From Gemmatimonadales bacterium (GTDB lineage: Bacteria > Gemmatimonadota > Gemmatimonadetes > Gemmatimonadales > GWC2-71-9): a DNA stretch of 53,611 nt. Position numbers and translations under genes: made by a program. Of this stretch, positions 15,758-22,123 are shown in pieces. The notes under the pieces are model-generated. The model searched no databases. It saw only the letters and a list, made by a program, of their open reading frames with translations, and was not told the DNA's origin. The stretch lies in the NCBI GenBank assembly GCA_011772755.1, contig WVYX01000149.1, forward strand, positions 3,904 to 57,514, in the 5' to 3' direction. Each line of letters starts with the position of its first letter. Within the stretch, counting starts at the first letter, position 1.

Positions 15758-16834
15758 ATGACTCGCATCGTTGGCGGTCTCCTGGTTGCGGTGGTGCTCC
15801 CAGTAGTGTCCGCTCCCGCACAGGAGGACGAGCCCGACTCGGTGTCGGCTCCAGCTCCGCTGTTCGAGTCCCACGATATCGTGGAGTTTACGCTCAAGGC
15901 TCCGCTCAAGACGATCTTCAAGGACCGGAGCCAGGAGAGCGAGGAGCTCCCAGGCACCCTCATCGTTCAAGACGACGCCGGCTCACAGGTCACGCTGGAC
16001 GTCAAAGTTCGTACCCGGGGCAAGTACCGACTGGAGCGGCGAACCTGCGGGTTTCCGCCGCTGCGGGTGAATTTTCAGACCAGCCAGGTCGAGAATACCG
16101 TCTTTTCCGGCCAGGACAAACTGAAGCTGGTGACCCATTGCCAGGACAAACGCAGTGAGTACGAGCAATACGTGTTGCAGGAGTACCTCATCTACCGGGT
16201 TTACAGCCTCCTCACGGATGTGAGCTTTCGCGTGCGGCTTGCACGGGTGACCTACGAGGATACCGATGAGGACCGCGATACCATCACCCGGTACGCGTTC
16301 TTCATCGAGGATGACGAGGCCATGGCGAAACGGGTGGGGTGGCAGGTGCTCAGCGTGCCGCTGGTGACGCCGGAGTATGTGGACCCGAAGCACCTGGCTG
16401 TCTTCGAGGTGTTCCAGTACCTGATTGGAAACACCGATTGGTCGGCGTTCCTCCCCGAGCCCGAGAAGCCCGATTGTTGCCACAATGCAAAACCCATTGG
16501 CGACCCGGCTGGCCCGGTGCTGCCGGTGCCGTATGACTTCGACATGGCTGGCATCATCTCGACGCGCTACGCAAAGCCGGATCCCATGGTAGGTGTGCGA
16601 TCGGTACGGGATCGCCGTTTTTGGGGCATCTGCCGGCCGAGGGAAGAAGTCGACGCTGCCCTTGCGGTCTTCAACGAGCAGCGCGACGCCATCTACGACC
16701 TCTACCGCAGTCAAGTGGGACTCGAGGAGAAGCCCCTCGAAAAGACTATCGAGTACCTCGATGAGTTCTACGAGGTCATCAACGATCCGAGGAAGGTGAG
16801 AGACGAGTTCCTCCGGATGTGTCGCGAAGTGTAG
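15758..16834 (+). CDS. Exported protein with CotH-like kinase-fold motifs
   Basis: The 358-residue protein has a signal peptide (IVGGLLVAVVLPVVSAPAQ). The start at 15758 is supported by GAAGGAGGG upstream. Motifs suggest an atypical kinase fold like CotH/FAM20-type secreted kinases: VRTRGKYRLERRTC and LKLVTHC in the N-lobe region, YLIYRVYSLLTDVSFRVRLA as a long helix, then NTDWSAF, CHNAKPI and VPYDFDMAG, the spacing expected for catalytic Asn/His and metal-binding Asp residues. This is my reading of spaced motifs, not a database match. It probably acts in the periplasm or at the surface. It may form a pair with the exported gene just upstream. Confidence 0.7.
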   Translation: MTRIVGGLLVAVVLPVVSAPAQEDEPDSVSAPAPLFESHDIVEFTLKAPLKTIFKDRSQESEELPGTLIVQDDAGSQVTLDVKVRTRGKYRLERRTCGFPPLRVNFQTSQVENTVFSGQDKLKLVTHCQDKRSEYEQYVLQEYLIYRVYSLLTDVSFRVRLARVTYEDTDEDRDTITRYAFFIEDDEAMAKRVGWQVLSVPLVTPEYVDPKHLAVFEVFQYLIGNTDWSAFLPEPEKPDCCHNAKPIGDPAGPVLPVPYDFDMAGIISTRYAKPDPMVGVRSVRDRRFWGICRPREEVDAALAVFNEQRDAIYDLYRSQVGLEEKPLEKTIEYLDEFYEVINDPRKVRDEFLRMCREV

Positions 16835-16847
16835 ACCACACATCCGG
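16813..16847. terminator. Inverted repeat across the stop codon of the exported gene
   Basis: CCGGATGTG (16813-16821) and CACATCCGG (16839-16847) are a perfect 9-bp inverted repeat with a 17-nt loop that contains the stop codon. It lies between convergent genes and may act as a terminator or mRNA end stabiliser. No T-run is present. Confidence 0.35.
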
Positions 16848-16866
16848 TGGCGGTTGGTGTGGCGGC

Positions 16867-17640
16867 CTAGGGCCGCCCGGCTGCGGCCTCGAGGCCCTTG
16901 CGGTTGCGGACGGTGATCGTCCGGCGGGTGACTTCGATTAGCTCTTCACCTGACGGGGCGCTGGACTCCGGGGGCTTCCGCCGGTTCGCGATGGCTAGCG
17001 TCTTCCGCGATACCTCGATGAGGCCCTGGGCGGTCAGATCCCGCATCGCTCGCGACACAGTCTCGCGGCTTGACCCGATCATCTGGGCGATGAAGTGGTG
17101 GGTTACCTGCTGGGTGACGTGCACGCCGTCGCTCTCGTCTGCCAGCTCGAGGAGTAGGTGGGCCACCCGCCCCGGTACCTCCAGCAGGGCCAAGCTGCCG
17201 ATCTTGTCATCGGCTTTCCGCAAACGCTTGCACAGGGCCCGCAACAGTCCAAACGTGACCTGGGGGAAGTCTTCCAGGCAACGGTAGAAGTCCTCCCTGC
17301 GGAGCACGAGTAGCTGAGCATCCTCCATCGCGATGACGGTTGCCGAGAGGGGCTGGTTGTCGATCAGGGACATCTCTCCGAAGAAATCGCCCTCGCTCCG
17401 GGTGGAGAGAATGACCTCCCGCCCATCTTCGGCGGTCAGGACGAGCTTGACCTGGCCGGACACGATCACGTACAGCGCGTTTCCGGGGTCGCTCTGCAGC
17501 GCGATGATGCTGTCTCGTGGGAAGGAGCGGAGCTGCGCAGCCTGACTGAGACGTGCGACATCCCCATCCCGTAGCTGCGAGAAGAGGGGGACATCCCGGA
17601 GCGCACCGGCCACCGTCATGGGTTCTCTCGCCTGGGTCAT
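16867..17640 (-). CDS. Crp/Fnr-family transcriptional regulator with duplicated C-terminal wing
   Basis: The 257-residue protein has a cyclic-nucleotide-binding-like beta-roll (~15-125, with GDFFGEMSLIDNQPLSATV), a long dimer helix and a winged helix-turn-helix (~175-222, IAQMIGSSRETVSRAMRDL). It lacks the N-terminal cysteines of FNR, so it is not an Fe-S oxygen sensor. Whether it binds a nucleotide is unclear: the GEMSLIDNQPLSATV loop has the Glu but not the canonical RAAT sequence. The C-terminus is extended: residues 207-222 (LIEVSRKTLAIANRRK) are repeated as 234-249 (LIEVTRRTITVRNRKG). It stands alone, with the small membrane protein gene divergent. Confidence 0.92.
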   Translation of the reverse strand: MTQAREPMTVAGALRDVPLFSQLRDGDVARLSQAAQLRSFPRDSIIALQSDPGNALYVIVSGQVKLVLTAEDGREVILSTRSEGDFFGEMSLIDNQPLSATVIAMEDAQLLVLRREDFYRCLEDFPQVTFGLLRALCKRLRKADDKIGSLALLEVPGRVAHLLLELADESDGVHVTQQVTHHFIAQMIGSSRETVSRAMRDLTAQGLIEVSRKTLAIANRRKPPESSAPSGEELIEVTRRTITVRNRKGLEAAAGRP

Positions 17641-17800
17641 CGGACTGGTCTAGCTTAGCGTTGGGCGTGACGCGCGTCAATCCGTCATATTCTCTTCATC
17701 CGGAGGCCAGCAAGCTGCGGCCCGGTTCCTGCCCTGGCGCAGGCGGGCGAGCGGGGCAAGTTCTGGGTGCGGTGCAGGAAAACGGGATCGCGGGGGGAGC

Positions 17801-18241
17801 ATGAGTGAGATCAAGATTCGCCTGACCGGATGGAAGGCCATCCTCGTGCTGGTCGTAGCGGTAGCGTTTGTCGGGTATCGCTACGTTGCCATGCGGACCA
17901 CCCTGGCCACCGAGGCCGCCGCTGAACTCCGGTTATGGCTGGCGGCGGGGTACATCTCCCAGGGGCTGCCGGCGCTGCAGGAGGCCGTGGAACGGGGCGA
18001 TCAGGAAGCAGCCGCCGCCCAGGCGCAGAACATCGTCGCCCAGGAGCGCATAGAGTTCACCTCCATCGGCGCCCGCGGCGGTCGTGACGATGTGGTTGTG
18101 CGGGTTGAGATCCTGGTGGACGGCAAGCCACCGCCGGATGGCAGGCAAGTGCGGTACTTCCGGATGCGGCACTCGCTGGTGACGGGTTGGATGATGCGCT
18201 ACGAGACGTCTGCGCTCGCCTACATCTTCAAACTCTTCTAG
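17801..18241 (+). CDS. Small membrane-anchored hypothetical protein
   Basis: The 146-residue product has one N-terminal TM helix (WKAILVLVVAVAFVGYRYV) and an extracytoplasmic or cytoplasmic domain of ~110 residues, first helical and Ala/Glu-rich, then a strand-rich part (VVVRVEILVDGK, VRYFRMRHSLVTGW). A GGGGGGAG ribosome binding site lies just before the ATG. No family recognised. It converges with the DUF4342 gene, whose stop is 15 bp away. Confidence 0.7.
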   Translation: MSEIKIRLTGWKAILVLVVAVAFVGYRYVAMRTTLATEAAAELRLWLAAGYISQGLPALQEAVERGDQEAAAAQAQNIVAQERIEFTSIGARGGRDDVVVRVEILVDGKPPPDGRQVRYFRMRHSLVTGWMMRYETSALAYIFKLF

Positions 18242-18256
18242 CGAGGCGTCTCGCGG

Positions 18257-18526
18257 CTACTCCGCTCCTTCGACCTTCTCTACGACGATGGTGAGGTTTG
18301 CGGCGAGCGCCGCAATGGCGCCGATCGCCGCCCACACCGGAGCGAAGGCCGCGCCGAGCACACCCCAGGTGAGGGGGATCTCGATCAACGTCTGGCCCTG
18401 ATCGTTCTTGATGATGATGCGCCGAATGTTCCCCTGATGCAGGATCTCTTTGATCTTGGCCAGGAGGCTCTCACCGGCCACCTTGTACTCCTCAGTCTGA
18501 ACCTTCTCTTCGCTCTCTTCGCTCAT
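18257..18526 (-). CDS. DUF4342 domain protein
   Basis: The 89-residue protein matches the pattern of DUF4342: a helical start (AGESLLAKIKEILHQGN), two strands (RRIIIKNDQGQTLIEIPL) and a hydrophobic Gly/Ala-rich hairpin (GVLGAAFAPVWAAIGAIAAL) that is likely membrane-embedded, ending IVVEK. Function is unknown; in other genomes the domain occurs alone or with ubiquitin-like or stress proteins. It lies 48 bp after the molybdoenzyme-desulfurase fusion on the same strand and may share its transcript. Confidence 0.8.
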   Translation of the reverse strand: MSEESEEKVQTEEYKVAGESLLAKIKEILHQGNIRRIIIKNDQGQTLIEIPLTWGVLGAAFAPVWAAIGAIAALAANLTIVVEKVEGAE

Positions 18527-18574
18527 CCTCGTCCTCGCTCACTAGGTTGGTCCCGCGGGGATAACCCCTGATCC

Positions 18575-21500
18575 CTACTTGCACGGCAGAAACCGTACCG
18601 TTGTCTCCATCTCTTCCAGCACCTGGGCCAGCGCTACCACCGTGTCGTCGATATCCTGCTCGGTGGTCTCCGGTGAGAGCGAGAACCGCACGGCGCAGTG
18701 TACATCCTCTTCGTCCTTCCCCATGGCGATGAGCACATGGGTGGGCTCCGGTGATCCGGACTTGCATGCGGATCCTGAGGAGAGCGAGATACCATGCTGG
18801 TCCAGCGCGACCACTAGCGACTCGCCTCGCAGCCCCGGTAGCGTCAGGTTGAGCGTATTCGGCAGCCGACGGTCCGGATGGCCGTTGCGGACGGCATCGG
18901 GAAGCAACTCCTTGATGCCGGACTCCAGCCTGTCCCGCAGCCGCTGCGTGTGCGCTGCGTCGCGCAGTGCACGAGCGGCCAACTCGGCCGCCTGGCCCAT
19001 TCCCACGATTGCCGGGACGTTCTCCGTGCCGGCGCGTAGTCCGCCTTCCTGCTTGCCTCCGTGGATCAGCGGCGCGAGCTCCACCCCCCGCTTGGCGTAG
19101 AGGACGCCCACGCCCTTGGGGCCGTGGAACTTGTGCCCTGAGAGACTCAACAGGTCGACATCGAGCTCCTCAACGTCAACCGGGATCTTGCCTGCCGCTT
19201 GCACGGCGTCGGTGTGGAAGGGAACGCCCCGTTCATGCGCGATGGCGCACAGCTCCCTAATGGGCTGGATTGTTCCCACCTCGTTGTTGGCCATCATGAT
19301 GGACACCAGGATGGTGTCGTCGCTGATGGCCGCTCTGAGGGTGTCGGGGTGAACCAGGCCGTCGGCGTCCACCTCGCAGTAGGTAACCCGATGGCCGATG
19401 TCTTCCAGAAAGCGACAGGCCGCGAGCACCGCCGGATGCTCAATTGAGGTCGTCACGATGTGACGGCGGCCGTTCCGATGGGTGAAGGCAATGCCCTTGA
19501 GTGCCAGGTTGTCCGCTTCCGACCCGCCACCGGTGAAGATGATCCACCGGGGTCGGGCGTTGATCAGCTTGGCTACTTGACGACGCGCTCGTTCGACACC
19601 TTCCCGGGCGTCCCGACCGACCCCGTGAATGCTGGACGGGTTGCCAAGGGCGGCCTCCAGGTAAGGCAGCATCGCTTCCCGGACGCTGTCCGCGACCCTG
19701 GTGGTGGCGTTGTTGTCCAGGTAAATACGCCGTTTGGAGTCCTTCTGGGCCGGCGGGCGCAGCAGGACGGGTCCGCATGCCTCTGCAGTGCGGGCAGCGA
19801 CGCTGCGAGTCGCGGCGGTCCCTGCCTGGACTCTTACGACGTCGCACAGCAGCGCCTTGTAGACCGGGAAGCCGGAGATCTCGTCGTAGTTGTCGAGGTC
19901 GGTCAGCTCGTTGACGTTCCACTCCCGCCAGGCCTTGGGGCCGACCGGCGTGCCGCCGCCCATGTTGCACTCCACGGCCCCACGCACGATGTCGTTGGTC
20001 ACGCGGGCCCGGAACCGCACAGCTCCACGCGGCGTGCGGACCTCCACCAGATCCCCCGCCTCGATGTCCCGCTCGCGGGCGTCCTCCAAGTTGAGCTCCA
20101 CCGTGGGCTCGGGATTGTCCCTTGCCAGGCCCCGAATGCCGTGGTGCTGTGAGCGGAAATCGGTGTGGGGCCGGGCGCCCGAGTTGAACACCAGAGGGAA
20201 CTGCTCCTTCAGATCCGGCCGGGCCAGCGGGCCCTCCGTAGGCTCGGTGTACTTGGGGAGCGGCTCGTAGCCGTACTCCTCGAGCACGGTCGACCGGATC
20301 TCGAACTTGCCGGTGGGCGTGTCGAAGCCCGGCTGGCCGTCGTGCCTGAGCCCACCTTTCTCCCACTTCTTGTACTCCATCATTGGCGATGGAAGCTTTA
20401 CCCAGCCTCCGGCTGCCTTGATCTCCTCGAGACTGTACCCCGAGCCTTCCAGCGCGAAGCGGATCAGCTCCTCTTCAGACTGGGGGTACAACTCTCCGTA
20501 CCCCAGCCGCCGCGCCAGCTCCGCCATGATGAGGTAGTCGTTGCGTGCCTCCCCCACCGGCTCGATCAGCTTCTCTCGCAGACGGAAGATGGGGCCGTAC
20601 ACCATGTAGGAATCGATCTCGAACATGGTGGTGGCCGGCAGCACGATGTCGGCGTAGGCGGCGTCCGCGGTGAGCTGCCGGTCGATGCAGACGAGGAAAT
20701 CCAGTTGGGACAGGGTGTCGCGCCAAATCGGAGTCTGCGGCCACGACGTGAGCAGGGACGCTCCATGGATGATCAGCCCCCTGATCCGGTAGGGCTCCCC
20801 CTCCAGCACGGAAGTCACCAGACCACTGGCGTGCGACTCACCACGGTAGTTGCTGTAGATGGGGAACTTGTCCCTGGCGACGGCGCGATCGAGGTCGGGG
20901 TTCTCCTGGTTGCAGGCCCGGTTGACGGGGAAGTGGGAGTTCAGCATTGCCAGGCCGATCCCGCCGGGGACATCCAGTTGGCCGGCCAGCGCAAATGCGG
21001 TGAGAACGGCCCGAATCGCCTGGATGCCGGAGTTGGAGTACTCCAGACCGGTGTACATCACCGGGCAGGCGCCCGTGGCGTTGCAGAGGCGACGCGCCAG
21101 ATCTCGAATGGTGTCCGCAGGCACGCCGGTGGTAGTCTCCGCGACCTCGGGGCGGAAGTGCTGTACGTAGCCCCGCAGCTCGTCGAAGCCGTGGCACCAG
21201 TGCTCGGCGAAGTCCTCGTCGTACAGATCCTCGTCGATCATCACCTCGATCATGCTGAGGGCGAGGGCACCGTCGGTGCCGGGTCGGATCGGCACCCACT
21301 GTGCGTTGGTCCGAACGACGGTATCGGTGCGGCGCGGGTCGATCACCACAATGTCGGCGCCCCGCACCGCCGCTGCTTCGAGCCGAGCCATGTCGAGGGG
21401 TGGGGAGTCGGTGGCGGGGTTGGCGCCCCAGACCACGAGCATCTCGGCGTTCTCGATGTCGGTGAACATGTTGACCAGCATGCGACCCATGGTCACGTGG

Positions 21501-21985
21501 GGCGCGATCATGGCGAAGGAGACGTAACAGAGAGCACCTACCCCCATCGTATTCGGGGAGCCGAAGGGAAACAGGATGTTGGACGCCGAGGATACTGCCA
21601 CACCCTTCGGCTGGTACATGTCGCACAGTGAGAGCTCGAACGCGCCGCGTCCGGTGTATACGGCTACCGCCTCCGCCCCGGACTCCCGCTTGATCCGGTT
21701 CAGGTTCTCGACGATCAGGTCATACGCCTCATCCCAGGTGATGCGCTCGAACTCATGCGTGCCCTTGGGGCCCACCCGCTTCATGGGATGCTTCAAGCGG
21801 TGCTCGGAGTAGATGATCTCCGGGGAGTGGCTACCTCGACGACAGATCATGCCCAGCGGGTGGCCGCTGTCTGGCCTGATGTCCACCAGCTTGCCGTCCT
21901 GCATGCCTGCTTCCACCCAGCAGCCCGCCGGGCAGATGCCGCAAATGCCTTTTTGCCAATTCAGTGACGGTGTGTGGTCTGCCAT
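18575..21985 (-). CDS. Molybdopterin oxidoreductase fused to cysteine desulfurase
   Basis: A single uninterrupted 1136-residue frame. Residues 1-718 are a bis-MGD molybdoenzyme of the formate dehydrogenase/PsrA-PhsA type: [4Fe-4S] ligands Cys15, Cys18, Cys22 and Cys48, likely Mo ligand Cys153 (GALCYVSF), dinucleotide-binding segments (VVWGANPATD, VVIDPRRT), and a C-terminal MopB beta-barrel (NSGARPHTDF, AGDLVEVRTPRGAV). There is no Tat signal, so it is probably cytosolic. After a ~34-residue linker, residues 753-1136 are a full-length NifS/IscS-type desulfurase: YLDNNATT, His850 in EHPAV, PLP-binding Lys952 (SGHKFHGPKG) and catalytic Cys1074 (SSGSACKSG). In known biology IscS supplies sulfur, through FdhD, to the Mo site of formate dehydrogenases; the fusion would place donor and acceptor on one chain. 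No ferredoxin or membrane-anchor subunit is adjacent. Confidence 0.95.
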   Translation of the reverse strand: MADHTPSLNWQKGICGICPAGCWVEAGMQDGKLVDIRPDSGHPLGMICRRGSHSPEIIYSEHRLKHPMKRVGPKGTHEFERITWDEAYDLIVENLNRIKRESGAEAVAVYTGRGAFELSLCDMYQPKGVAVSSASNILFPFGSPNTMGVGALCYVSFAMIAPHVTMGRMLVNMFTDIENAEMLVVWGANPATDSPPLDMARLEAAAVRGADIVVIDPRRTDTVVRTNAQWVPIRPGTDGALALSMIEVMIDEDLYDEDFAEHWCHGFDELRGYVQHFRPEVAETTTGVPADTIRDLARRLCNATGACPVMYTGLEYSNSGIQAIRAVLTAFALAGQLDVPGGIGLAMLNSHFPVNRACNQENPDLDRAVARDKFPIYSNYRGESHASGLVTSVLEGEPYRIRGLIIHGASLLTSWPQTPIWRDTLSQLDFLVCIDRQLTADAAYADIVLPATTMFEIDSYMVYGPIFRLREKLIEPVGEARNDYLIMAELARRLGYGELYPQSEEELIRFALEGSGYSLEEIKAAGGWVKLPSPMMEYKKWEKGGLRHDGQPGFDTPTGKFEIRSTVLEEYGYEPLPKYTEPTEGPLARPDLKEQFPLVFNSGARPHTDFRSQHHGIRGLARDNPEPTVELNLEDARERDIEAGDLVEVRTPRGAVRFRARVTNDIVRGAVECNMGGGTPVGPKAWREWNVNELTDLDNYDEISGFPVYKALLCDVVRVQAGTAATRSVAARTAEACGPVLLRPPAQKDSKRRIYLDNNATTRVADSVREAMLPYLEAALGNPSSIHGVGRDAREGVERARRQVAKLINARPRWIIFTGGGSEADNLALKGIAFTHRNGRRHIVTTSIEHPAVLAACRFLEDIGHRVTYCEVDADGLVHPDTLRAAISDDTILVSIMMANNEVGTIQPIRELCAIAHERGVPFHTDAVQAAGKIPVDVEELDVDLLSLSGHKFHGPKGVGVLYAKRGVELAPLIHGGKQEGGLRAGTENVPAIVGMGQAAELAARALRDAAHTQRLRDRLESGIKELLPDAVRNGHPDRRLPNTLNLTLPGLRGESLVVALDQHGISLSSGSACKSGSPEPTHVLIAMGKDEEDVHCAVRFSLSPETTEQDIDDTVVALAQVLEEMETTVRFLPCK

Positions 21986-22004: not shown

Positions 22005-22123
22005 AACTAGCAATGTGCAAATAGCAATTAGCAACTAGCAGTTTGTGCGGGAGCGATGTGGCTGCCTCCCTGACCCAGACTGCTAATTGCTAATAGCCAG
22101 TTGCTAGCTGCTAGTTGCTCCCC
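22005..22123. repeat. Heptad palindrome A (7-nt units, inverted arms)
   Basis: The left arm is five consecutive 7-mers (AACTAGC, AATGTGC, AAATAGC, AATTAGC, AACTAGC at 22005-22039). The right arm carries inverse units (GCTAATT, GCTAATA, GCCAGTT, GCTAGCT, GCTAGTT at 22082-22116), with a ~40-nt GC-rich centre. The arms can pair over about 40 nt with mismatches. It fills the gap between the fusion gene start and the cyclophilin stop, and shares units with repeats at 25351 and 49037. Confidence 0.8.

Follow-up and report, generated by a model that had tools for sequence, protein, structure and literature searches.

A Gemmatimonadales protein uniting a bis-MGD module and a cysteine desulfurase as a very probable metallopterin-dependent ergothioneine synthase

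What does a bacterium make with a protein that joins a molybdoenzyme to a cysteine desulfurase in one chain? The question is raised by a stretch of 53,611 nucleotides of a Gemmatimonadales genome (contig WVYX01000149.1; the whole stretch is called the window below), in which positions 18575-21985 of the minus strand hold a single ATG-started open reading frame of 1136 amino acids without an internal stop. A two-part protein of this type is already known: it is the metallopterin-dependent ergothioneine synthase (MES) described in 2022. Judged by sequence comparison, the open reading frame almost certainly encodes a MES, in which the fused desulfurase would feed the Mo/W site.

One chain with two catalytic modules

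The features of the open reading frame are the following, with the basis of each assignment in brackets.

18575-21985, minus strand: very probable MES ortholog, 1136 residues (open reading frame, domains, and residue-by-residue agreement with the Caldithrix abyssi enzyme, CaMES, as described in PMC9516567)
19832-21985, minus strand: N-terminal bis-MGD (Mo/W) module, residues 1-718 (Pfam, PDB sequence search, Foldseek)
21842-21943, minus strand: [4Fe-4S] cysteines C15, C18, C22 and C48 (alignment; invariant in A1)
21527-21529, minus strand: Cys153, predicted metal ligand (alignment; invariant in A1; PMC9516567)
19730-19831, minus strand: variable linker, residues ~719-752 (24% identity over 716-752; pLDDT below 50 at 737-750)
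18575-19729, minus strand: NifS/IscS-type cysteine desulfurase module, residues 753-1136 (Aminotran_5 277.7 bits; NifS model 503 bits)
19130-19132, minus strand: Lys952, PLP Schiff-base lysine (alignment; PMC9516567)
18764-18766, minus strand: Cys1074, desulfurase persulfide cysteine (alignment; PMC9516567)
18581-18583, minus strand: Cys1135, C-terminal tail relay cysteine, essential in CaMES (alignment; PMC9516567)

Along the chain, Pfam recognizes Molybdop_Fe4S4 (residues 10-60), Molybdopterin (63-492), Molydop_binding (604-711) and Aminotran_5 (754-1113), all above their cut-offs. None of the naming equivalogs of NCBIfam is reached: NifS scores 503 bits against a cut-off of 530.75, the IscS cut-off is likewise missed, and Fdh-alpha (TIGR01591) and PhsA remain at 281.8 and 272 bits against 666.25 and 694. 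The protein therefore comes from a family that the Pfam and NCBIfam libraries do not name.

Both a PDB sequence search and Foldseek (best match, E 1.7e-47) identify acetylene hydratase, 2e7z, as the nearest solved fold of the N-terminal module, and the same enzyme is the best structural neighbour of CaMES (PMC9516567). This tungsten enzyme shares the fold, the [4Fe-4S] cluster and a Cys-ligated bis-MGD centre with the window protein at 26% identity, but it hydrates acetylene and lacks a desulfurase domain. The C-terminal module has the PLP lysine and persulfide cysteine of NifS, IscS and Nfs1 and is about 40-46% identical to solved structures of this group; it differs from them in being fused to its acceptor, in carrying an extra relay cysteine (C1135) and in falling under the NifS and IscS equivalog cut-offs. 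An AlphaFold2 model of the 1136-residue protein (mean pLDDT 81.5) again matched 2E7Z best, followed by Nfs1/IscS, with low confidence in the linker and over the final nine residues. A mobile C-terminal tail would suit a persulfide relay, while low pLDDT is in itself no evidence of motion.

The alignment of homologs bears out the residues that the earlier note had named (C15, C18, C22, C48, C153, K952 and C1074), and its statement that both halves keep their catalytic residues also holds. The four Fe-S cysteines are kept in every aligned homolog that reaches their columns, with the exception of one odd row, and C153, K952 and C1074 are conserved to the same extent, single odd rows apart. Overlooked at the time was C1135, the second residue from the C-terminus in the tail FLPCK, which is present in all 69 homologs reaching that column. 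The only poorly conserved stretch is the linker: homologs are 24% identical to the window protein over residues 716-752, compared with 62-77% elsewhere and 67-77% in the domains on either side.

A scan of GTDB species genomes with the fused protein returned 80 loci, three of which (L088-L090) are stand-alone desulfurases, leaving 77 MES loci; some of these are cut by contig ends or have broken frames. The fused chain thus occurs in more than 70 independent genomes at 57-83% identity, mostly over its full length, and the locus titles span about 18 named phyla. Within the class of the window's organism, the complete fusion was found in 12 of 295 sampled genomes, including the window's own. Two of the scanned loci tie in with this sample by identical coordinates: L026, from a named Gemmatimonadetes bin, equals G042 in the family of the window's genome, and L060, from Candidatus Kutchimonas denitrificans (Gemmatimonadota), equals G106 in its class, in line with a Gemmatimonadota origin of the window. 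Because the same fusion is seen in more than 70 loci of separate assemblies, and the class sample has it in 11 genomes besides the window's, the junction is no artefact, and an assembly error or frameshift at this point is ruled out. The halves are not routinely separate in close relatives, where they are fused, and the reading of one chain combining a bis-MGD module with a NifS/IscS-type desulfurase is correct.

In a quick tree of MES the phyla are intermingled, with 27 label changes where 15 would be the minimum; this fits horizontal transfer, though misbinned contigs could give the same picture. One locus on a very long branch, L081, matches in frame only to query residues 516-1136; it is probably frame-broken in its record and was not counted as a variant. 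In another genome, a second, truncated N-terminal half of MES (G049:C1:2487193-2489163; residues 11-329 in a 443-codon frame) adjoins egtD, with a complete MES elsewhere in the same genome; the truncated half is possibly a decayed duplicate.

Probable ergothioneine synthesis and the alternative readings

Clustering of the genes neighbouring the MES loci yielded a single recurrent partner, and this partner, egtD, led to the work of Beliaeva & Seebeck (2022; PMC9516567) on CaMES. The partner is a protein of about 330 amino acids found in 26 loci, which falls in the family of EgtD, the histidine-specific methyltransferases (Methyltransf_33). It lies in the fetched neighbourhood of 26 of the 77 loci, within 500 bp in 22, where 0.23 would be expected by chance. 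Where no egtD is nearby, 42 of 50 genomes have it elsewhere. In the remaining 8 of these 50 EgtD was not detected, which counts against the MES reading; these genomes are probably incomplete bins. Within the class sample of 295 genomes, EgtD was present in 12/12 genomes with MES and 137/283 others (Fisher p 4e-4, with non-independent lineages). The window's genome encodes MoaA for cofactor synthesis and one EgtD (331 bits against an equivalog cut-off of 290.9) on a contig other than that of mes.

The published enzyme provides a close match. According to its description in PMC9516567, CaMES has the same domain order and the same length of 1136 residues as the window protein, with C153, K952, C1074, C1097 and C1135 at identical numbers; the Fe-S cysteines are at 14/17/21/48 in CaMES and at 15/18/22/48 here. 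Both genomes encode EgtD. Two points set the window copy apart: its genome, from Gemmatimonadota, codes for an aa3 cytochrome c oxidase as well, and mes and egtD lie on separate contigs. In E. coli, CaMES was shown to form ergothioneine, and its C-terminal module has cysteine desulfurase activity (PMC9516567). Mutation of C153 (as C153S), K952, C1074 or C1135 abolishes ergothioneine production, with little effect of C1097, and sulfur transfer is obligatorily intramolecular (PMC9516567). By orthology, we infer that the window protein does what CaMES does.

The C-terminal PLP desulfurase would accordingly convert L-cysteine to alanine, with Cys1074 taking up the sulfur as a persulfide. From there the sulfane sulfur would move, probably by way of Cys1135 in the C-terminal tail, to the Mo/W bis-MGD centre of the same polypeptide, which is ligated by Cys153. 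This centre would insert the sulfur at the imidazole C2 of N-alpha-trimethylhistidine, supplied by the EgtD encoded on the other contig, to give ergothioneine without O2. Even for CaMES, the chemistry at the metal is only proposed (PMC9516567).

Among the alternatives, a MES-like C-S bond-forming enzyme might have drifted in this lineage to another imidazole substrate, such as histidine or another methylated histidine. The separation of mes from egtD in the window's genome is a point for such drift and counts against MES itself; with 57-83% full-length identity in a family that has many egtD-linked members, and with EgtD in this genome as in each of the 12 MES-bearing genomes of the class, we consider drift highly unlikely.

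The chemistry of the IscS-FdhD-formate dehydrogenase route is established, and it offers a precedent for a self-sulfurating, formate dehydrogenase-like oxidoreductase whose fused desulfurase installs a terminal sulfido ligand once, in place of FdhD. Fdh-alpha is also the top-scoring NCBIfam molybdoenzyme model, yet its 281.8 bits are far under the cut-off and mes is associated with egtD. Furthermore, FdhD, SufS and a second NifS-like desulfurase are all encoded in the window's genome, so there is no sign that FdhD or IscS has been supplanted; sulfuration without FdhD had been a suggestion of the earlier note. The characterised ortholog makes ergothioneine: its sulfur is a substrate atom, placed onto trimethylhistidine at every turnover, and the cofactor, it is argued, has to be resulfurised in every cycle (PMC9516567). 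Such an oxidoreductase is thus very hard to credit here, and of the self-sulfuration once proposed one part survives, namely that the desulfurase feeds the Mo site of its own chain; the sulfur, on the evidence from CaMES, is destined for ergothioneine and not for cofactor maturation (PMC9516567).

A reductase of the PsrA/PhsA kind, also raised earlier, would take persulfide or polysulfide sulfur from cysteine and release H2S; it can be set aside as having practically no probability. PsrA and PhsA do count among the nearer molybdoenzymes (2vpw 213 bits; PRK15488 272 bits), but the score misses the PhsA cut-off (694 bits), and the Fe-S motif lies so close to the start of the chain that a Tat signal peptide would not fit. 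In the clustered neighbourhoods, mes has no recurrent partner gene for electron transfer or membrane anchoring, and the known product of the ortholog is ergothioneine.

The reading as MES also sets the protein beside the other enzymes that sulfurise trimethylhistidine from EgtD-family enzymes. EanB, which is rhodanese-like and uses polysulfide, and EgtB, an O2-dependent iron sulfoxide synthase, are both unrelated to it.

Genes and sequence around mes

Several neighbours of mes recur on a smaller scale. In four Dehalococcoidia loci, a DinB-fold protein adjoins mes and egtD (L017:12603-13130, L039:272-799, L055:4062-4708, L080:5924-6451); the one in L080 scores as mycothiol transferase MST (NF047843), and the neighbour is perhaps an ergothioneine-dependent S-transferase. 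Five loci from different groups have a DUF5996 family protein next to mes (L022:68-976, L024:6302-7210, L032:6441-7478, L042:1817-2749, L084:6363-7316). The Dehalococcoidales locus L017, with mes and egtD, additionally holds a separate cysteine desulfurase family protein (TIGR01977; 13359-14507) and a 705-aa molybdoenzyme (16663-18780), which share only some 31-33% identity with the MES halves.

In the window itself, positions 22005-22116, between a cyclophilin gene and mes, contain a 41-nt imperfect inverted repeat of TAGCAAT/TAGCAAC units and fold at -61.6 kcal/mol (z -4.1). The motif has no other occurrence within the window, and a promoter and terminator scan around mes found none.

EgtB, oxygen and the range of the family

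No EgtB above cut-off was detected in the window's genome, where the only FGE-sulfatase match, a protein of 603 aa, resembles a protein kinase in its N-terminal part; as the genome is only about 85% complete, this absence is no proof. In the class sample, EgtB above cut-off is found in 0/12 genomes with MES and 106/283 others (Fisher p 5e-3, again with non-independent lineages). A mutual exclusion of MES and EgtB holds in this sample and is refuted elsewhere: 8 of 50 MES genomes of other groups carry EgtB above cut-off (L020, L032, L033, L034, L035, L057, L064, L081), several with egtB beside egtD, and MES is therefore not always the sole sulfurising enzyme. Among them is the cultured Thiorhodococcus mannitoliphagus DSM 18266 (L064 = G324), which encodes MES, EgtD and EgtB. 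This co-occurrence suggests that some bacteria have both O2-dependent and O2-independent ergothioneine synthesis.

According to the abstract of PMC9516567, MES is found 'exclusively' in anaerobes. In the window's genome there are genes for a CtaD-type aa3 oxidase and for a second heme-copper oxidase-family protein (G000:C22:12268-13608, G000:C68:51974-53326; L092, L093); its CtaD (cytochrome c oxidase subunit I) reaches 735 bits against an equivalog cut-off of 670.75, which makes an obligately anaerobic organism less likely. A search of 51 MES genomes, 49 of them distinct, matched the heme-copper oxidase family in 43, and roughly half of the distinct genomes scored more than 400 bits; only the strongest matches are likely oxidases, because the family also includes nitric oxide reductases. 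Oxidase gene content is no proof of aerobic life, and the presence of MES in bacteria with O2-respiration genes is only a mildly new point. We lean slightly towards the view that MES works in O2-respiring bacteria, some of which keep both the EgtB and the MES routes and switch between them.

MES and EgtD were also found in animal symbionts (L033, L073), namely Candidatus Thiodiazotropha from the clam Epidulcina and Candidatus Thiosymbion, the Catanema ectosymbiont. These could provide their hosts with ergothioneine.

No molybdenum/tungsten enzyme family had been reported to form a C-S bond before MES, and this biochemically remarkable family was found and studied in 2022. What the present case contributes is range: about 18 named phyla, many genomes with terminal oxidases, animal symbionts and a cultured strain that also bears EgtB. 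If MES does work in O2-respiring bacteria, the published view of it as an enzyme of anaerobes only would be too narrow.
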